Assembly (NCBI GenBank): GCA_945870325.1
Contig: CAMBRQ010000023.1
Coordinates: 1-39,898 of the forward strand
Length of the DNA: 39,898 nt
DNA from: an uncultured Dorea sp.
Lineage (GTDB): Bacteria > Bacillota > Clostridia > Lachnospirales > Lachnospiraceae
Reading direction: 5' to 3'
A model generated the notes under the pieces. That model saw nothing but the letters and a program-made list of their open reading frames with translations, did not search any database and was not told where the DNA came from. Position numbers and translations under genes: made by a program. Each line of letters starts with the position of its first letter. Position 1 is the stretch's first letter. Of the stretch, positions 7,785 to 33,303 are shown piece after piece.

Positions 7785-8948
7785 TCACAAATTTTCTAAC
7801 TTCCTTTTCGCATTCTTGCTTCCATGCTCTGCCGCTATCTTAAGCCAATACATACCCTTTTCAGGATCACTCTGTGGGGTCGCCTCATCCATATACAGAA
7901 CACTGCACAGATACGCAGATTCAACATGCCCTCTCTTTGCCGCCCGCAGAAACCAGCGCAACGCTTCTGATTCATCCCTTTGGGTTCCTTTCCCGATTTC
8001 ATACATACAGCCGCATTCAAACTGGGATTCCGCATGTCCCTGTGCTGCTGCTTTCAGGAACCATTTCAATGCTTCTGCATCATCCACGGCAGTCCCCTGT
8101 CCTGCCTGGTACATCGTCGCCACACCATACTGTGCCTCCATATAACCGCCCTCTGCAGCTATAAGCAAAGATTCAAATGCCTTCTTAAACTTTCTCTTTT
8201 TATACAACTCCAATCCTTCGCGGTACTCATCCTCAACAATGACCTTAATACTTTCGAGTTGTCCGATATATCTCACTGCTTGCATGCGCTCCTCTTCTGT
8301 TTCCTCACGTCTTTGTACCATGCGAATATATCCGTACTTGCTATTCACATTTCCGTTTTCAGCAGAGAATAAATAATATCGAAGCGCCATATCCAGATTT
8401 TCCTCAACTCCCTTGCCCTCCTCATACATCCAACCCAAAGCATTCTGTGCATCTGCATATTTCTTTTCTTTAGGAGAAATATGATCACATACATACTTCA
8501 GCAGTGGAAATGCCTGATCATATTCAAAAAGCATGTACAGATCCATTCCCTGCACATAACATTCATTCAGATTTAATTGCTGCTCCTTTTCTTTACTTTC
8601 CACCTTCTTACTTATTCCCGGCTCTTGCTCTGTCTGCACTTCCTTCTTCGGTTTCGGTTTTGCTTCCTTTTTTGGCTCTGGTTTTACTTCCTCTTTTGGC
8701 TCTGGTTTTACTTCCTTTTTTGGTTTCGACTTCGCCTCCTTTTTTGGCTCTGGCTTCACTTCCTCTTTTGGCTCTGGCTTTACTTCCCTCTTTGGTTCCG
8801 GCTTTACTTCTTTCTTTGGCTCAGGTTTTTGCCTTGGCTTCCGTTTCTTCTTGGAATTTACAGCCACACTTTCTTTGTTTTTTTCCTGCTCGGCTGCCTT
8901 ATTATTGATAGCAATAACGCCATCTAATACTCCCTGTATCGCTGCCAT
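7785..8948 (-). CDS. Sel1-repeat protein with Lys-Pro-Glu linker
   Basis: A 387-residue protein. Residues 41-104 are eight tandem octapeptides of the form KPEPKKEV, highly charged and proline-rich, likely an extended spacer. From about 145 to the end it is built from Sel1-like helical repeats (ALGWMYEEGKGVEENLDMAL, VATMYQAGQGTAVDDAEALK, CGCMYEIGKGTQRDESEALR, WLKIAAEHGSKNAKRKL). Sel1 repeats are protein-protein interaction scaffolds, and the partner is unknown. There is no signal peptide. It is the last gene of the run from 11881, 39 bp after the small unknown gene. The start codon has only a weak ribosome site (GGGCG), so the exact start is uncertain. Confidence 0.8.
   Translation of the reverse strand: MAAIQGVLDGVIAINNKAAEQEKNKESVAVNSKKKRKPRQKPEPKKEVKPEPKREVKPEPKEEVKPEPKKEAKSKPKKEVKPEPKEEVKPEPKKEAKPKPKKEVQTEQEPGISKKVESKEKEQQLNLNECYVQGMDLYMLFEYDQAFPLLKYVCDHISPKEKKYADAQNALGWMYEEGKGVEENLDMALRYYLFSAENGNVNSKYGYIRMVQRREETEEERMQAVRYIGQLESIKVIVEDEYREGLELYKKRKFKKAFESLLIAAEGGYMEAQYGVATMYQAGQGTAVDDAEALKWFLKAAAQGHAESQFECGCMYEIGKGTQRDESEALRWFLRAAKRGHVESAYLCSVLYMDEATPQSDPEKGMYWLKIAAEHGSKNAKRKLENL
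8637..8828 (-). repeat. 24-bp minisatellite encoding KPEPKKEV octapeptides
   Basis: Eight direct repeats of 24 bp, diverged mainly at Lys/Arg/Glu and Val/Ala positions, lie within the Sel1-repeat gene. The unit length is a multiple of three, so gain or loss of units keeps the frame. Confidence 0.85.
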
Positions 8949-8987
8949 ATATACACGCCCGACGTATATGACAAGTTCCTTCGCATC

Positions 8988-9314
8988 CTAATACGCAGCA
9001 GTGATAAACGCATCTTTCACGCCACTTTGACGAACACCACATAATCCCTTAAATGGGACTTTCTTCACTTTACTGCTGCGTAATTTATCAAAATCCGAGC
9101 CATATAATCCGTCTATTGCCAGAATATATCCCCCTTTTCCACTTCCCATAAGAGTCGTATCCCATATGCCAACAATATCGCTTCTGCTGCATACACTGCC
9201 ATAAGATGCTAATGCGTTTTTAATCACCTTTTCGCTCAACTGAACCTCTGGTTTAAACCTGGCACCATTCTCTGCCGATACTTTCTTCATTAATTCAGAT
9301 AACTGTTCCCTCAT
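8988..9314 (-). CDS. Small protein of unknown function
   Basis: A 108-residue soluble protein with no signal peptide or membrane segment. Its core (DIVGIWDTTLMGSGKGG followed by YILAIDGLYG) has a glycine-rich turn followed by a strand, a pattern I associate with small uncharacterised Firmicute proteins, but I cannot name a family. The start at 9314 is set by AAGGAGG 6 nt upstream; the longer in-frame version would begin before that site. It lies 34 bp after the EamA transporter and 39 bp before the Sel1-repeat gene, so it is probably co-transcribed with both. Confidence 0.6.
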   Translation of the reverse strand: MREQLSELMKKVSAENGARFKPEVQLSEKVIKNALASYGSVCSRSDIVGIWDTTLMGSGKGGYILAIDGLYGSDFDKLRSSKVKKVPFKGLCGVRQSGVKDAFITAAY

Positions 9315-9348
9315 TGTCTTCCTCCTTTTCATTTTACTCTTCTCTCTA

Positions 9349-10275
9349 TCACTTCTCCCCACGGTTCACCATCACAATCCCGATACATACCAAGAGAAGC
9401 GCCACTAACCCCTTAAGTGTAAATGCTTGGTTCTTTTCCCCAAGCAACAAAGCCGAGAGGATCACGCCAATAATCGGATTGGCGAATCCGAATACCGCCA
9501 CTTTCCCCACCGGATTGTACTTTAGCAAAATGCTCCATAGTGAATAGGCTACCGCCGAGATCAGTCCCATATAGATCAGCAGAAGCGTCGATACCCCTGT
9601 AAATCCAGTCACCCTTCCTCCGCAGATCCATCCAATCATAGACAGGACAATCCCGCCAAAGAAGAATTGATATCCACAAAGCGTGAACGTATCCTCCCGG
9701 CTGGAATACCCCTTTATCATCACCGAAGAAAGTGCCGATGCAAATGCCGACACAAGCATGGAACCTTCTCCTGCCAAAGACAGATTCATATCCATCTTCC
9801 CTCCGGTCAGATTAATGAGAATTACTCCCGCAAATCCAACAAGGCAGCCTAAGAATTTCCCGACAGATAATCTTTCCCGAAATACCAAAACTGACAAAAA
9901 TATAGCCAGGAATACGTTAGACGCCGTAATAATCGAAGATTTTACCCCTGTCGTATGTGCCAGTCCCATATAAAAGAAAACATATTGGAATATCGTCTGC
10001 ACTGCCCCCAGTTTGATTACCATGAACCACGAAGATGATTTCGGTCTCATAAAACTTTTCTTTAGAAAACTGCCAATCAGGATCACCATCACACCTGCCA
10101 GTGTAAACCTGTATCCCGCGAACAGCATCTGGGACATCGTATCCTCTCCCTGAATGCCAAAAAGCCTGTATCCAATCTTGATACTTGGAAACGCGCTTCC
10201 CCACAATGTGCAGCACAAAAGCGCAACCGCACAGACAACCAGCGGTTTTTTTAATATATGCGTATCTTTCTTCAT
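9349..10275 (-). CDS. EamA/DMT-family transporter
   Basis: A 308-residue membrane protein with about ten hydrophobic segments and the two-fold EamA repeat of the drug/metabolite transporter superfamily (first half with LWGSAFPSIKIG, second half with VAVFGFANPIIGVILSALLLGE). Members usually export amino acids or other metabolites. The substrate cannot be read from sequence, but its operon partner at 10640-11881 is a ThrE-type amino-acid exporter. Its ATG overlaps the stop of the upstream selenoprotein gene by four bases (ATGA), implying coupled translation. Confidence 0.9.
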   Translation of the reverse strand: MKKDTHILKKPLVVCAVALLCCTLWGSAFPSIKIGYRLFGIQGEDTMSQMLFAGYRFTLAGVMVILIGSFLKKSFMRPKSSSWFMVIKLGAVQTIFQYVFFYMGLAHTTGVKSSIITASNVFLAIFLSVLVFRERLSVGKFLGCLVGFAGVILINLTGGKMDMNLSLAGEGSMLVSAFASALSSVMIKGYSSREDTFTLCGYQFFFGGIVLSMIGWICGGRVTGFTGVSTLLLIYMGLISAVAYSLWSILLKYNPVGKVAVFGFANPIIGVILSALLLGEKNQAFTLKGLVALLLVCIGIVMVNRGEK

Positions 10276-10643
10276 CTTATAAAGCCATCCTTATTGTTAT
10301 TTTGCATAGAGTCCTCCGGCTGCTCATCCGCTTCCTTTTCAGGCGGAATCACTTGGATTCCCTCCACCTCGAATGTACTGATCCACGGATATTCCATATA
10401 ACGAACCACAATCTGCTCCTCTGTCCGTACACCTTGAGCAGGATAATACACCTTCCCCATCACACTCTCATCACAATGATATCCCCGGCTAATATAATAC
10501 TCCTTCTTCTTATCAGTAAAACCTACTGATACCTCCGTACGCGGAGGCGCACATCAACTGGTATACAATGTCGCGTCCAGAACAATATCTGCAAATCCCA
10601 GTCTTTTCATATAGGCAATCGCATTTTCATTCAACTCGATCAT
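10272..10643 (-). CDS. Selenoprotein with a Sec-Cys motif (TGA at 10556-10554 read as Sec)
   Basis: Read through one in-frame TGA, this frame gives 123 residues with Sec30-Cys31 in TSUCAPPRTEVSVGF. Four things support readthrough. The ATG overlaps the stop of the upstream exporter gene (ATGA), and its own stop overlaps the next ATG (ATGA), so the full frame fits exactly between its neighbours. The frame is open and protein-like on both sides of the TGA. The codon next to TGA is Cys, a common redox pairing. A six-base-pair hairpin lies 6 nt downstream. The N-terminus (MIELNENAIAYMKRLGF) is weakly reminiscent of IscA/HesB-type starts. From memory it resembles the small family named for a CC or Sec-Cys motif; its function is not known. 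The tail (about 100-123) is Glu/Gln/Asn-rich. An annotator ignoring Sec would report only a 63-residue fragment from 10463. Confidence 0.85.
10532..10556 (-). promoter_or_regulatory. Sec codon with candidate bacterial SECIS hairpin
   Basis: Immediately after the TGA (10556-10554) the message forms CCUCCG (10547-10542), loop CGUA, and CGGAGG (10537-10532), a perfect 6-bp stem whose base is 6 nt from UGA. A G sits in the first two loop bases, as bacterial SECIS elements usually have. The stem is shorter and nearer the UGA than the classic E. coli fdhF element, which is within the known diversity. Confidence 0.7.
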
Positions 10644-11881
10644 AAGGCTTTCATCCTTTCCCCCACATAACGGGTCGCAATTTCTACCAGCAGGAAACCA
10701 AATGCAATCGCAATACAAGTCTGTCCCAATAAGATGGTCTGCTGTTTCGCTAATGCATAATCTGCCTGCACAACTCCATGCATCATGTAAAACAATGTCG
10801 CTCCCGGAATCACCGGCATGATCGCAGTCGTCAGAAAAATCGTCGATGGTGCCTTGTGGAATCTTGACATCGCATACGCATATGCCGCTACAAAAGTCGC
10901 GCCTGCCATAACTGCGGTAAAACTGTTCCCATTAAAATGCTGTACAAGCAGATAACAGCCGCAGTTAATCAGCCCGCCAATCCCTGCATAGACGGAATGC
11001 AGAACCGACGCCTTAAACATCATTGCGAATCCCATGCTCGCCACACCGCAAGTAACCAACTGCACAATAATACTCGGTGCAATATACATCTCATACATAT
11101 CTCCCTCGAACAGAACCATAGCAAGACCCGTACCACACGCAATCGCTATTGCACCCAGACATGCATTGGCTACATTCAATATCCCTGACAGATAAGCCCG
11201 ATTCAAGATATCTCTGATTCCATTCGTTACGCCCAGCCCGCTTATCAGTACCATGTTAAGTCCCAGTACGATCCGATCCGGGTGATGTCCAAGTCCCAAC
11301 TTAGCAACTAAGAATACCGCCGCCGAGGACAAAAAGGCGATGATAATGTTATACACTACAAGGTTCTGCTCTTTCTTTTCAAGCATACTGCCAAAATATA
11401 CTTCTATCAACGCGCATATGAGAATTCCGACAATGGTATCTGCCAGATCACAGCCAAAATACACGCCGAACCCAACGCCGCCCAGGATTGCCGACAAGTA
11501 TTTCTGATACATAGGCTGCGGCTTACGGTTCATGACTTCCTCATATTTCTCACGGATCTCTTCCACTGATGGAGTATTCCTGCATATGTATCTGGACAGA
11601 TTATTCAGATAGTCCAGTCTGTCATAATGAAATCCCGTCCTGTGTACTCTCCTGACCTGCGTGATATAATGCCCGCCTGTCGGTCTGATCGTCGCCTGAA
11701 TGTTGCTCTGTATTACGAATACACTGCACTGCTCCACATCATAACTTTCAATCATCCGATAGATACTGTCCTCTGCACGATCCGTCTCCGCACCGCTTTT
11801 TACCATCTCTTTTCCGATGTTCAGAATTTCATTTAATAATAATTCATAATCCATGCCACATATAGGTTCCGATATCCTCAA
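10640..11881 (-). CDS. Threonine/serine exporter family protein (ThrE type, fused)
   Basis: A 413-residue protein in which the ThrE_N domain (residues about 10-250; ILNIGKEMVKSGAETDRAED start, then membrane segments) and the small ThrE_2 part (about 270-410) are joined in one chain, as in actinobacterial ThrE. In many Firmicutes they are separate. There are about ten membrane segments. Family members export threonine and serine. The start is a TTG at 11881 because AAGGGGGG lies 6 nt before it, while the first ATG at 11854 has no ribosome site. It is the first gene of an operon continuing into the selenoprotein and an EamA exporter with ATGA overlaps. An inverted repeat at 11946-11971 lies upstream. 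Confidence 0.85.
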   Translation of the reverse strand: MRISEPICGMDYELLLNEILNIGKEMVKSGAETDRAEDSIYRMIESYDVEQCSVFVIQSNIQATIRPTGGHYITQVRRVHRTGFHYDRLDYLNNLSRYICRNTPSVEEIREKYEEVMNRKPQPMYQKYLSAILGGVGFGVYFGCDLADTIVGILICALIEVYFGSMLEKKEQNLVVYNIIIAFLSSAAVFLVAKLGLGHHPDRIVLGLNMVLISGLGVTNGIRDILNRAYLSGILNVANACLGAIAIACGTGLAMVLFEGDMYEMYIAPSIIVQLVTCGVASMGFAMMFKASVLHSVYAGIGGLINCGCYLLVQHFNGNSFTAVMAGATFVAAYAYAMSRFHKAPSTIFLTTAIMPVIPGATLFYMMHGVVQADYALAKQQTILLGQTCIAIAFGFLLVEIATRYVGERMKAL

Positions 11882-28133: not shown

Positions 28134-28163
28134 AAAAGACCCCTAACTAAAATGGGGTCTTTT
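28134..28163 (-). terminator. Terminator of the molybdenum hydroxylase operon
   Basis: AAAAGACCCC (28163-28154 on the minus strand) pairs perfectly with GGGGTCTTTT (28143-28134). The stem begins inside the last codons of the Mo-subunit gene and ends in a T-run. Confidence 0.85.
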
Positions 28164-30450
28164 CAGCATTTTTACTTCTTTCTAGAATTCCCATTGCAAT
28201 CTTCTCGCTGGTAATCGGAAGTTCTTTGAACCAAAGTCCGGTTGCATTAAAAATCGCATGGGCCAGCGCCGGAGCCGGTGTATTAATGACAATCTCTCCG
28301 ATGGACTTCGCACCGAACGGACCACTCTCTTCATAACTGCTCTCGAATTCCACGCGCATTCTTCCGGTATCCAACCGCGTAGGCACCTTATACTGCATAA
28401 AGGAGTTATTACGAAGCCTTCCTTTGTCATCGTACTGGATGTCTTCGTACAAAGTCATGCCAATGCCCTGTGCCAGGCCTCCTTCTGTCTGGACTCTTGC
28501 CAGATTCGGATTCACAACAGTTCCACAATCTACAACTGCCGCATAGTCAAGGATCTCAACGTGTCCAGTCTCTTTGTCCAGTTCGATCTCAACGGCTCCA
28601 GCCATGAAAGGCGGCGGCGACAACGGAGAACTATTACTCTCTGTCACCTGAAGCGCATGGTTATTGCCTACCATAGATTTAAAGCCTACTTCTGCAAGTG
28701 ATACAGATGCAGACTGATCCAAAGTTTCCACCCGGTCTCCCGCAAATACTAACTTTTCTGCAGATGTTTCCAGCATCTCTCCTGCCACTTCCAGAATCCT
28801 CTCTTTCAACTGAGCACAGGCACGCTCCACAGCCTTGCCTGTTACATAGGTGGTACTAGATGCATAAGATCCCGAATCATATGGCGAGGAATCCGTATCC
28901 GCTCCCAGAACTGCAATATCCTCCACAGAGCACTCCATGCACTCTGCAGCCATCTGTGCTAATATAGTATCGCATCCGGTTCCCATATCCGCTGCTGCAA
29001 TTAACAGAGTGTAACTTCCATCTTCATTCAATTTGATTGTCGCCGAGCCTACATCCACTGCTGCAATTCCCGATCCCTGCATTGCCATGGCGATTCCTAC
29101 ACTTCGTACTTTGCCATTCCCCATATCCCTGCAAGGATGTTTGTCCTTCCAGCCAATCATAGATGCCGCACGCTCAAGACACCTGTCCAAAGCACAACTA
29201 TTGGTCTGCTCTCCGTAGTATGCCGGCATAACCTGTCCTTCACGTACCATATTCTTCTCCCGCAGTTCTACCGGATCCATTCCCAGCCTGTCAGCCAGTT
29301 CATTCACGGCTGACTCTACAGCGAAGATACCCTGCGTCGCACCATAGCCTCTGTATGCGCCCGCCGACATGACATTCGTATACACTACATCATAGGCAAA
29401 GCGATGGGCTTCCAAAGAACCGTAGAGCGGAATGGATTTGTGTCCGGACAAACCAACCGTAGTAGGGCCATGCTCGCCGTATGCTCCCGTATTCGACAGA
29501 GTATAGACATCCATTGCGCGGATTCTTCCATCCTTCATCGCTCCTACTTTCACAGTTACTTCCATCTCATGTCTTGGAGAAGATGCCACCTGAGACTCTT
29601 CTCTGGTAAAGATCATCTTCGATGGTTTCCCGGTCTTCCAGGTTACAAATGCAGGGAATACTTCTGCCACTACCGTCTGCTTCGCGCCGAATCCTCCTCC
29701 GATTCTAGGCTTCATAACCCGGATCTTAGACTTCGGGATTCCAAGCGCCTTGGCCAAGATTCTACGAACATGGAATACGATCTGGGTAGAACTGAATATA
29801 TTCAATCTTCCGTATGCATCCATATAACAAGCGGTACGGAATGTCTCCATCATTGCCTGCTGATTTGCCTTGGTATGATAAGTACCTTCCACAACCACAT
29901 CACAATCTTTTAGCACTGCATCCACATCTCCATTGTGAGATTCATCGCTCGCACATAAATTTCTCTGATTATCCGCCCCTACCGGACATAAGACCACCCA
30001 GTTATCTTCCGGATGCACCAGTATCGGGTTATCCATTGCCTGATGGAAATCCAGAATCGCAGGCAGCACCTCATATTCTACTTTAATCAGACGAAGGGCC
30101 CGGTCTACGCACGCTTCATTCTCCCCGGCAACAATCGCTACCGGATCTCCCACGTAACGAACATGACGATCTAGAATCAGGCGGTCCTGCGGACTTGGCT
30201 CCGGATAAGTCTGTCCTGCCATCGTGAATCTCTCCTGTGGCACATCTTCCCAGGTATAGATTACTTCAATCCCCGGAACCTTTAAGGCAACATCCGTCTT
30301 GACAGAGAGGATATTCGCATTGGCATGAGGGCTTCTAAGCACCTTCACAATCAGGCAGTCCTTAGGTGCCAGATCATCCATGAATACCGGCTTACCCGTA
30401 ACTAATGCCATCGCATCCTTCTTCCTGACAGGCTGACTGACTACTCGCAT
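28147..30450 (-). CDS. Xanthine dehydrogenase-type molybdenum hydroxylase, Mo-binding subunit
   Basis: Catalytic subunit that hydroxylates purines or other heterocycles at the molybdopterin centre. It is 767 residues, the usual size for the separate large subunit. It begins with the hammerhead domain (VTGKPVFMDDLAPKDCLIVK). Further along are the Mo-cofactor motifs GGGFGAKQTV, AGAYRGYGATQ and, near the end, GPFGAKSIGE with the catalytic Glu. In Clostridia such enzymes may carry a labile selenium ligand, but sequence alone cannot prove this. Its start overlaps the FeS-subunit gene by 10 bp. The gene next to the operon's start is a purine permease, which supports xanthine or a related purine as substrate. 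Confidence 0.9.
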   Translation of the reverse strand: MRVVSQPVRKKDAMALVTGKPVFMDDLAPKDCLIVKVLRSPHANANILSVKTDVALKVPGIEVIYTWEDVPQERFTMAGQTYPEPSPQDRLILDRHVRYVGDPVAIVAGENEACVDRALRLIKVEYEVLPAILDFHQAMDNPILVHPEDNWVVLCPVGADNQRNLCASDESHNGDVDAVLKDCDVVVEGTYHTKANQQAMMETFRTACYMDAYGRLNIFSSTQIVFHVRRILAKALGIPKSKIRVMKPRIGGGFGAKQTVVAEVFPAFVTWKTGKPSKMIFTREESQVASSPRHEMEVTVKVGAMKDGRIRAMDVYTLSNTGAYGEHGPTTVGLSGHKSIPLYGSLEAHRFAYDVVYTNVMSAGAYRGYGATQGIFAVESAVNELADRLGMDPVELREKNMVREGQVMPAYYGEQTNSCALDRCLERAASMIGWKDKHPCRDMGNGKVRSVGIAMAMQGSGIAAVDVGSATIKLNEDGSYTLLIAAADMGTGCDTILAQMAAECMECSVEDIAVLGADTDSSPYDSGSYASSTTYVTGKAVERACAQLKERILEVAGEMLETSAEKLVFAGDRVETLDQSASVSLAEVGFKSMVGNNHALQVTESNSSPLSPPPFMAGAVEIELDKETGHVEILDYAAVVDCGTVVNPNLARVQTEGGLAQGIGMTLYEDIQYDDKGRLRNNSFMQYKVPTRLDTGRMRVEFESSYEESGPFGAKSIGEIVINTPAPALAHAIFNATGLWFKELPITSEKIAMGILERSKNAEKTPF

Positions 30451-30914
30451 GATTCTCCCCCTCTTCTCCGATACTCTAAGAATTGCTTTATCGCCCTTAA
30501 CTGACCTTCATAGCCGGAACATCTGCATAGATTTCCCGCCAGGTACTCCTTGATTTCCTCTTCGGAAGGATCTGGATTCTCCCGAAACAATGCAATCGCA
30601 TTCATAATCATCCCCGGATTGCAGAAACCACACTGCTCCGCCCCCTGGTCTGCAACAAATGCGCCAAATTCCTCTGCCTCTTTCTGAAGTCCTTCCAGCG
30701 TCTCCACACGGTGACCGTCTGCTCTTGCAGTCAAAAGCGAACAGGACAGAATCGGCTTGCCATCCAGGAATACCGTGCATAATCCGCAATTGGAGGTCTC
30801 ACAGCCACGTTTCACACTATAACAGCCATGAGATCTTACATAATCAATCAACAACTGATCGCTGTTAATCTCATCTTCTCTGGTCTTTCCGTTCAATACG
30901 ATTTTAACCTTCAT
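30441..30914 (-). CDS. Xanthine dehydrogenase-type FeS subunit
   Basis: A 157-residue electron-transfer subunit with two [2Fe-2S] clusters: a plant-ferredoxin-type set (Cys38, Cys43, Cys46, Cys58 in GCETSNCGLC and LSC) and the C-terminal set (Cys95, Cys98, Cys130, Cys132 in CGFCNPG and CRCSGY). All eight ligands are present. It lies 2 bp after the FAD-subunit gene and overlaps the Mo-subunit gene, in the usual FAD-FeS-Mo order. Confidence 0.93.
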   Translation of the reverse strand: MKVKIVLNGKTREDEINSDQLLIDYVRSHGCYSVKRGCETSNCGLCTVFLDGKPILSCSLLTARADGHRVETLEGLQKEAEEFGAFVADQGAEQCGFCNPGMIMNAIALFRENPDPSEEEIKEYLAGNLCRCSGYEGQLRAIKQFLEYRRRGGESCE

Positions 30915-30916
30915 GG

Positions 30917-31741
30917 CTATACCTCTCCTCCTCTCTCCTGCAATGTACTAAGACACCGGAATAGCAGAACCTCTGCCAGATGACTCCGATACTCGGCACT
31001 GGCACGCATATTGCTGTCCATTGGTATATCCTTCGCTAATCCAGCCGCCAGACTTCTAAGGTCTTCTTTCGTATAGGCGCCCTTTCTTAGTCGCATAACC
31101 TCTTCAGTTCCAATCTCAATACGAATCGCACGTCCCGGTCTTGCACCTGCCACAACATAGCCCCGGCAGTTATCTGTCTGCCCGGACAATGCTGCCGCAC
31201 AAGCCAGTACCGGGAAATCCGTCTTCGCATTCCGATGTGTCATATAAACACATTTTACAGGTGTCTTCTTTACAATAATGCGAACCAGAATGTCCCTGTC
31301 TCTCTTTATCCCAACAAACTGTTCCAGCGGGATTACACCGCTCTGATACAATTCAACATACGTATCTAACGCAAGAAAACAAGTCAATACATCGGAGAAA
31401 CCGAATCTTCCGAAGATACTGCCCCCTATCGTAGCCAGATTCCGAAACTGTACGCCTACAATATCCTTCACACAATCTCTGATTGCTCCATTCGTCCACT
31501 CGTTCAGCCTCGGATGCAGTTCTAACTGCCGAAGCGTTACCATGCACCCTATAGAGAAAGAGTCTTCTGTCTCTTCGATGGTATCCAGCCCCAGTCCAGA
31601 CAGATCAATTGCCTTCTGAACCGTCCGATCAGACATCTTAAGCCACAGCATACCTCCCAGTATACAGTTAGACTTCTTCTGATTCAGTTCATATGCCTGC
31701 TCAAGGCTCTCTGCTTTTACATATTCTTTGATCTTCAACAT
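30917..31741 (-). CDS. Xanthine dehydrogenase-type FAD-binding subunit
   Basis: A 274-residue FAD subunit that passes electrons to the external acceptor. It shows the FAD-contact motif ATIGGSIFGRFGFSDVLTCF, a variant of the family ATxGGN motif with Ser in place of the Asn, and the N-terminal LGGMLWLKMSDR. The start at 31741 has GGAGG 9 nt upstream; longer frames include that site. It is the first of three tightly packed subunit genes behind the permease. Confidence 0.9.
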   Translation of the reverse strand: MLKIKEYVKAESLEQAYELNQKKSNCILGGMLWLKMSDRTVQKAIDLSGLGLDTIEETEDSFSIGCMVTLRQLELHPRLNEWTNGAIRDCVKDIVGVQFRNLATIGGSIFGRFGFSDVLTCFLALDTYVELYQSGVIPLEQFVGIKRDRDILVRIIVKKTPVKCVYMTHRNAKTDFPVLACAAALSGQTDNCRGYVVAGARPGRAIRIEIGTEEVMRLRKGAYTKEDLRSLAAGLAKDIPMDSNMRASAEYRSHLAEVLLFRCLSTLQERGGEV

Positions 31742-31786
31742 AGTTTCCATCCTCCATAAGCATCCATGCAACACTCGCTATTCTAT

Positions 31787-33190
31787 CTACTCAGCCGCAT
31801 TCTCATCTTTTGGCAGTACGATATTGAGAATCATTGCAACCAATGCCGCCGGCACAATACCAGAACCTCCGAAGATTAACTGGATCGTATTCGGCAACTG
31901 AGCCAGAACTCCGCTATTTGATCCGATTCCATATCCAAGTCCCAGCGCAACTGACACGATTGTAATATTTCTTGCTGTCATCGGTTCCTTGGTAATTAAC
32001 TGGATACCGCTCACAACAATAGAAGAAAACATCATAACCGCTGCTCCGCCAAGCACGCTCTGAGGCATAATGGAGATCAACGCTGCCAGTTTCGGGAACA
32101 GACCGCACAGAATCAGGAATACGGCACCTGTTGCCAGCGCAAACCGATTCACGATCTTGGTCATCGTAACCAGTCCGACATTCTGGCTGAATGATGTATT
32201 CGGAAGCACGCCGAATAATGCAGCGAATGAAGAACCAATTCCATCACAAGTCACGCCGCCGGACAATTCTGTATCCGTAGCCTCACGTCCCATACCGCCT
32301 TCCATAACGCCAGAGATATCTCCAACAGTCTCAACCGCTGTTACAATGAACATAATCATGATTGGAAGAATTGCTCTCCAGTCGAATACCGGCTTAACCG
32401 GAAGCAGTTTTGGAAGTGAGATCCAGTCTGCCTGAGCCAGTTTATCCCAGTTCAGGACCCACGCCTTCGTATACTCTACGCCATCAGCATCCACGCCTGT
32501 AGTCGGCAAGACGATTCCCATAATCGCCGCTACGATATAGCCAACGATAATACCGATCAAGATAGAAGATGCACTGGTCATCCCCTTTGTGCAATGCTTC
32601 AGAACTACAATCACAATCAGTACGATTCCGCCAAGCAGAAGATTCTCAAGAGAACCGAAATCCGCTGCCGTATTGCCGCCTCCAAAGGAATTCACGCCCA
32701 CTGCGATCAGCGACAATCCAATGGATAATACAACCGTACCCGTAACAACCGCCGGGAAGAATCTCCTTAACGGCTTAATCAGGAAGCCCAATACCGTCTC
32801 AAAAAGTCCACCGATGATGGATGCACACATAATTGCTCCATAAGCCAGGACTCCACCGCCCATCACCTGCGCCACACTGTTGAACACGCCGATGAATCCG
32901 GAACTGGTTCCCATGATAATCGGCACTTTACCACCGATTGGTCCAATCGCATACAACTGAACTAACGTCACAATACCTGCCACTAACATCGCATTCTGCA
33001 GCAGATCTACCTGTAGATCTGCGAATTCGCTGCCTGCACCCATTCCACAGGCTCCGGTAATAATTAATAATGGGGTTAAGTTTCCTACAAACATCGCAAG
33101 TACATGCTGTAGTCCGAGAGGAATTGCTCTCTTTAATGGCAGTTTTCCATAAAATTCATATTCTGCACCTTTTTTCTCTGGTTTATTCAC
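31787..33190 (-). CDS. Purine (xanthine/uracil) permease, NCS2 family
   Basis: A 467-residue, about fourteen-helix nucleobase transporter with the NCS2 signature region VETVGDISGVMEG and the early segment LGLQHVLAMFVGNLTPLLII. By context it imports xanthine or urate-like purines for the hydroxylase encoded just downstream (45 bp). The start is a GTG at 33190 with AGGAG upstream; the TTG at 33220 precedes that site. No purine riboswitch was found in the 113-bp leader. Confidence 0.9.
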   Translation of the reverse strand: MNKPEKKGAEYEFYGKLPLKRAIPLGLQHVLAMFVGNLTPLLIITGACGMGAGSEFADLQVDLLQNAMLVAGIVTLVQLYAIGPIGGKVPIIMGTSSGFIGVFNSVAQVMGGGVLAYGAIMCASIIGGLFETVLGFLIKPLRRFFPAVVTGTVVLSIGLSLIAVGVNSFGGGNTAADFGSLENLLLGGIVLIVIVVLKHCTKGMTSASSILIGIIVGYIVAAIMGIVLPTTGVDADGVEYTKAWVLNWDKLAQADWISLPKLLPVKPVFDWRAILPIMIMFIVTAVETVGDISGVMEGGMGREATDTELSGGVTCDGIGSSFAALFGVLPNTSFSQNVGLVTMTKIVNRFALATGAVFLILCGLFPKLAALISIMPQSVLGGAAVMMFSSIVVSGIQLITKEPMTARNITIVSVALGLGYGIGSNSGVLAQLPNTIQLIFGGSGIVPAALVAMILNIVLPKDENAAE

Positions 33191-33303
33191 TGTTCTCTCT
33201 CCTTTTGTAAATTTATTCAATCGTAGGAAGTATAACTTAAAATAGGGATTTTGTATAGATTTTCTTACGAATTTAGCAGAAAAACCTTGAAGGATTCCCC
33301 ATT

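Follow-up and report, generated by a model that had tools for sequence, protein, structure and literature searches.

A-type iron-sulfur (Fe-S) carriers such as IscA and SufA, which have the HesB/IscA fold, use three cysteines. Within the selenoproteins, Table 1 of a 2026 inventory of 119 prokaryotic families lists two groups that come close to the gene described here, the CC/Se family with a CxxU motif (U denoting selenocysteine, Sec) and the HesB-like family with a UxGP motif, and under the rule given in that inventory a differing Sec motif defines a distinct subfamily (PMC13188914). We analyzed a 39,898-nucleotide stretch from an uncultured Dorea sp. (contig CAMBRQ010000023.1, hereafter the window), in which an earlier note made from the sequence alone had proposed a selenoprotein gene, overlooked by default annotation, within an exporter operon. 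We put at roughly 0.85 the probability that the minus-strand gene at 10272-10643 encodes a 123-residue protein of predicted HesB/IscA fold, with a UGA codon decoded as Sec and a resulting Sec30-Cys31 pair. That the TGA is read as Sec is almost certain for the family, which we call UCAPP after its motif, and very probable for the window's own copy.

The reading frame, for which the earlier note gave no strand, runs on the minus strand from an ATG at 10643-10641 to a terminal TGA at 10274-10272 (372 nucleotides, 123 codons plus stop), and its product begins MIELNENAIAYMKRLGFADIVLDATLYTSUCAPPRTEVSVGFTD... The sole internal stop is the TGA at codon 30 (10556-10554), and the next codon is TGT (10553-10551), encoding Cys31. 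ATGA overlaps were found at both gene ends, the upstream open reading frame (ORF) stopping within 10643-10640 and the downstream ORF beginning within 10275-10272. The lone TGA beside a cysteine codon and the paired overlaps, both described in the earlier note, were thus confirmed.

When 397 genomes of the window's own family were searched in six frames, matches turned up at 17 places, spread over 15 genomes, and each contained an in-frame TGA. Fourteen of these, in 13 genomes, carry the motif [TS]SUCA(P/A)P, while the other three (L014, L015 and L017) form a distant subfamily with the motif CNTUGGS(F/Y). A sample of 61 genomes searched before this had included 24 that belong to other families of the order, and none of those 24 gave a match. 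With three further copies taken from named records, including Mogibacterium kristiansenii, the TGA was read as DNA in 17/17 close copies (the window's among them) and in 20/20 once the CNTUGG subfamily is counted; TGG was seen in none of the 20. The proposed Sec-Cys gene is therefore supported by the same TGA and motif in every close copy. In our family alignment (A1) S29, C31, A32 and P34 are invariant in 20/20 sequences, flanking the TGA on both sides, and Sec30 and Cys31 are the only conserved Sec/Cys positions.

Database proteins gave a different picture of the same site. We examined 124 homologues from two listings, leaving out 81 of the 201 in the second. Only 36 span the site, with Trp in 35, Phe in one (P0043) and Cys in none; the remaining 88 begin shortly after it. 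Cultured carriers, such as [Clostridium] hylemonae, Extibacter muris and Claveliimonas, are annotated with a 67-79-residue 'hypothetical protein' without the N-terminal part, in line with truncation of this gene by gene callers. Of the two residues that the earlier note had proposed to look for at position 30 of homologues, U is supported by the DNA copies and C was not found in the spanning proteins.

The Trp residues could suggest that TGA is read as Trp, through a reassigned code or a suppressor. They were seen in proteins whose DNA was unread, and they fit gene calling under translation table 4, because P0020 shows Trp both at the site and where copy L002 has its terminal TGA. As the selenoprotein gene and its upstream neighbor both terminate in TGA, and no copy has TGG, we regard a Trp reading as extremely improbable. 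The truncated homologues could instead reflect two genes or a programmed stop, with the TGA ending a peptide and translation restarting at an ATG or GTG shortly downstream, where these 88 proteins are predicted to start. The predicted starts fall in differing alignment columns, as Met or Val, the invariant residues lie across the TGA, and one high-confidence predicted fold runs continuously through residues 1-100, so this explanation seems highly improbable. The co-occurrence of the gene with selA, described below, argues against both.

Both before and after the TGA, the synonymous rate (dS) exceeded the nonsynonymous rate (dN) in 7/7 pairs, several with saturated dS; one pair, L004/L016, comprises two copies in one genome with too few changes to weigh. 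P0003, an 81%-identical homologue, is similar to the window protein on both sides of the site. Judged by these substitutions, both sides of the TGA evolve like coding sequence.

Bacterial selenocysteine insertion sequence (SECIS) elements are described as stem-loops just downstream of the UGA whose small apical loop contains a G (PMC1088965). A stem-loop of this kind, as in bacterial Sec-decoded genes, was found at 10512-10530 on the minus strand (ATCAGTA-GGTTT-TACTGAT) and is the predicted SECIS apical stem-loop. We aligned the 17 close copies at this region and left out the three CNTUGG copies, whose spacing differs. In these, 95.8% of 119 cells are paired, and in 13 cells both partners are changed, compared with 4.0 in shuffles, with a covariation score of 0.358 against 0.203 (neither reached in 500 shuffles); these controls, like the simulations that follow, leave sequence relatedness in. 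Two further measures were unremarkable, namely three both-side-changed pairs (reached by 55/500 shuffles) and seven further pair types (156/500). In 2000 simulations that kept the amino acids, 77.7 (sd, standard deviation, 4.5) pairs formed against the 114/119 observed, and for the three wobble-wobble pairs 23.6 (sd 3.0) against 49/51; the observed values were never reached. Sliding the partner strand along lowered pairing to 14-57%.

The earlier note had named another hairpin as the SECIS element, the perfect 6-bp CCTCCG-CGTA-CGGAGG at 10532-10547 of the minus strand. This hairpin is present and begins 6 nucleotides past the TGA, but as the whole element it does not hold up. Only the four invariant pairs of its CUCC/GGAG core are kept in 17/17 copies, whereas the outer pair fails in 13/17 and the inner pair in 10/17, and no covariation was found (340/500 shuffles reach its score). 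It may nonetheless be part of the element, because its pairing (79/102) exceeds that in synonymous simulations (46.5, sd 3.6). Rfam gave nothing at gathering score in the window, and only chance-level matches around the selenoprotein gene.

The gene co-occurs with selA. Over-cut-off matches to selA were present in 61/397 genomes, comprising 12/13 carriers of [TS]SUCA(P/A)P and 49/384 others (Fisher 7e-10, on the assumption that both 397-genome sets are identical and with kinship uncorrected). For carriers of either subfamily, tRNA-Sec was over cut-off in 15/18 (not in G000, G148 or G375) and selD in 16/18 (not in G000 or G128), and all 16 selD genes contain an in-frame TGA of their own. G128, a 96%-complete genome, has tRNA-Sec over cut-off, yet not selA or selD.

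In carriers, selD, selA and tRNA-Sec lie within one locus of about 10 kb, and the ORF clusters that surround selA are shared by 10 to 14 of the 14 carrier loci (L070-L083). By Pfam, the L070 locus contains a TusA-like gene, selD, selA, selB, LysR, aminotransferase V, TetR, a proline racemase gene and an RnfC-like gene, and tRNA-Sec lies between the racemase and RnfC-like genes; here selA and selD were placed by their own searches, and selB by its position and its match in G035. It was also observed that the selDAB and tRNA-Sec locus of carriers adjoins proline racemase, RnfC-like and Gly_reductase-type genes, as proline reductase loci do.

The lone [TS]SUCA(P/A)P carrier without selA is the window's own genome (G000), and this weighs against Sec decoding of the window's copy. 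In its assembly (82.5% complete, 63 contigs) we found no selA, selB, selD or tRNA-Sec, and no proline racemase of the sel-locus type. An absence of sel genes from the genome, which the earlier note had named as a refutation of its reading, is thus what this assembly shows; in the remaining close carriers selA was found. The window's copy could on this evidence be a relic of lost Sec decoding, in which the TGA terminates and leaves a 29-residue peptide or only a restarted C-terminal part. All the sel genes could also be missing through a single gap, because selD, selA and tRNA-Sec share one locus. Contig C51 of the same assembly (L093:9444-12056) encodes the sarcosine reductase proteins GrdG and GrdF, and this GrdF, a textbook selenoprotein, has a single, intact in-frame TGA (U350) in the motif STUGTCTRC and scores 832 bits against a curated cut-off of 800. 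It is therefore likelier, and simplest, that G000 uses Sec and that an assembly gap has swallowed its sel locus, though its lineage may have lost Sec decoding recently. The hairpin, the Sec-Cys motif and the frame of the window's copy are intact, and given also the similarity of P0003 on both sides of the site, we consider the relic explanation unlikely.

The window gene lies between two exporter-type genes on the minus strand, a ThrE-type gene upstream (10640-11881; PF06738 3.1e-56, PF12821 1.9e-23) and an EamA-type gene downstream (9349-10275; PF00892 1.1e-36). Neither is a conserved neighbor. No ThrE or EamA ORF cluster recurred in at least 3 of the 20 loci, and the one other EamA gene seen lies two genes downstream in L053; the neighbors in L047 include MFS and MatE genes. 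Among the neighbors scanned, Pfam named P5CR, IMPDH, MTHFR, P-type ATPase, GntR, SseB, DUF554 and others. ABC-transporter-type ORFs occur in 11/20 loci and MatE-type ORFs in 6/20, as raw counts taken anywhere within the stretches read. The link with amino-acid export suggested by the earlier note is a trait of the window's locus, not one shown for the family. Elsewhere in the window, 28147-33220 holds a xanthine dehydrogenase-type molybdopterin-binding hydroxylase gene and a xanthine/uracil permease gene, and 7785-9362 holds two ORFs on the same strand, 39 nucleotides apart, one with Sel1 repeats at 7785-8948 and another at 8988-9362, which may be one split gene.

Searches with the window protein itself were largely empty. 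Pfam and NCBIfam gave zero matches at E 0.001; the sole match in either at E up to 10 was Pfam DM9 (E 0.0019, sub-threshold), and for copy L004 EIF_2_alpha appeared at E 0.0011, under cut-off. Neither was accepted. A profile search of solved-structure sequences returned nothing convincing, the best matches being DUF4465 and Sel1-repeat fragments at E 0.0087 and worse, and no relatives were found in phage, plasmid and viral-contig searches.

In the structural model the Sec-Cys pair sits in a loop between two strands (residues 28-34), which we take to be near the position of the first cysteine of A-type carriers. It seems unlikely that the window protein is an ordinary Fe-S carrier, because no cysteine is conserved besides Cys31. 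In the mechanism that we propose, ribosomes arriving from thrE would reinitiate at the overlapping ATG, and SelB with Sec-tRNA would decode the UGA, aided by the hairpin at 10512-10530. The selenoprotein would remain cytosolic, where the Sec-Cys pair could act as a thiol-selenol redox pair or as a soft-metal ligand. A redox or soft-metal role is a tentative proposal, which we hold at somewhat less than even odds. At close to even odds, though still short of them, stands the possibility that UCAPP is a family of obligate selenoproteins that lacks any cysteine form and whose HesB-fold Sec-Cys pair carries out chemistry that Cys-Cys cannot replace.

Described filters for selenoprotein discovery demand either a homologue already known to contain Sec or homologues with Cys (PMC13188914), or in another case at least two Cys homologues (PMC1088965). 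A family such as UCAPP would escape them, because neither the 36 homologues that span the site nor the 17 copies read as DNA include a Cys form. Through this family, experiments could address why Sec is required at some sites.

Of the described selenoproteins, the HesB-like family (TIGR01911) also places Sec in a HesB-type protein, and its UxGP motif (PMC13188914, Table 1) resembles UCAPP. The window protein gave no match to TIGR01911, the window's genome gave nothing at E 0.001, and none of 299 genomes passed its cut-off (66.35). From 30 loci we aligned 25 HesB-like sequences, all below that cut-off, leaving out five short matches. Compared with the CC/Se profile, these 25 sequences give a match in which the Sec positions coincide (8.7e-9), whereas their direct comparison with our family alignment was not significant (probability 1.8%). 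The window protein shares the predicted fold with the IscA/SufA carriers at a sequence identity of 12-16%, and contrary to their three-cysteine set the UCAPP family conserves Sec30 and Cys31 only.

The CC/Se motif family (NF041239; 30 loci in our alignment) comprises, like UCAPP, small selenoproteins of predicted HesB/IscA fold. Its CxxU motif (PMC13188914, Table 1) differs from the [YIF]TSUCAPP of the window family; the window protein reads Y27-T-S-U30, and Cys is absent from the Y27 column of alignment A1. At the NF041239 cut-off of 40, the window protein gave no match with E up to 10; copy L009 scored 14.4 bits, four other close copies gave no score, and the CNTUGG relatives scored 14.9 to 24.7. 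The CC/Se members L117, L108, L111 and L114 have Sec followed by Cys, as in SSUCG, GGUCG and GGUCP. Sub-cut-off matches with two in-frame TGAs were seen in G693, G502, G571, G646, G669 and G538, and one over cut-off in G468; these are possibly double-Sec relatives. Some matches to the wider CC/Se family have no stop at all, and non-Sec forms therefore probably exist there, none with Cys having been seen here.

A search of the literature, with subscription papers and preprints outside it, found no UCAPP selenoprotein family in print. The family is absent from Table 1 of the 119-family inventory (PMC13188914), and no model of NCBIfam release 20 matches the window protein or has its cut-off reached by any of the eight further copies scanned (five close ones and three of the CNTUGG subfamily). 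We therefore call the UCAPP group a new family among the HesB-fold selenoproteins. The small CC or Sec-Cys family mentioned in the earlier note is not one to which the window protein belongs by NF041239, but remote kinship is supported by profile comparison, both directly (probability 88.7%, E 2.5e-6) and more strongly by way of the CNTUGG subfamily (7.7e-15, then 5.1e-10). By this measure of shared ancestry, the window family is a distant relative of the CC/Se motif selenoproteins.
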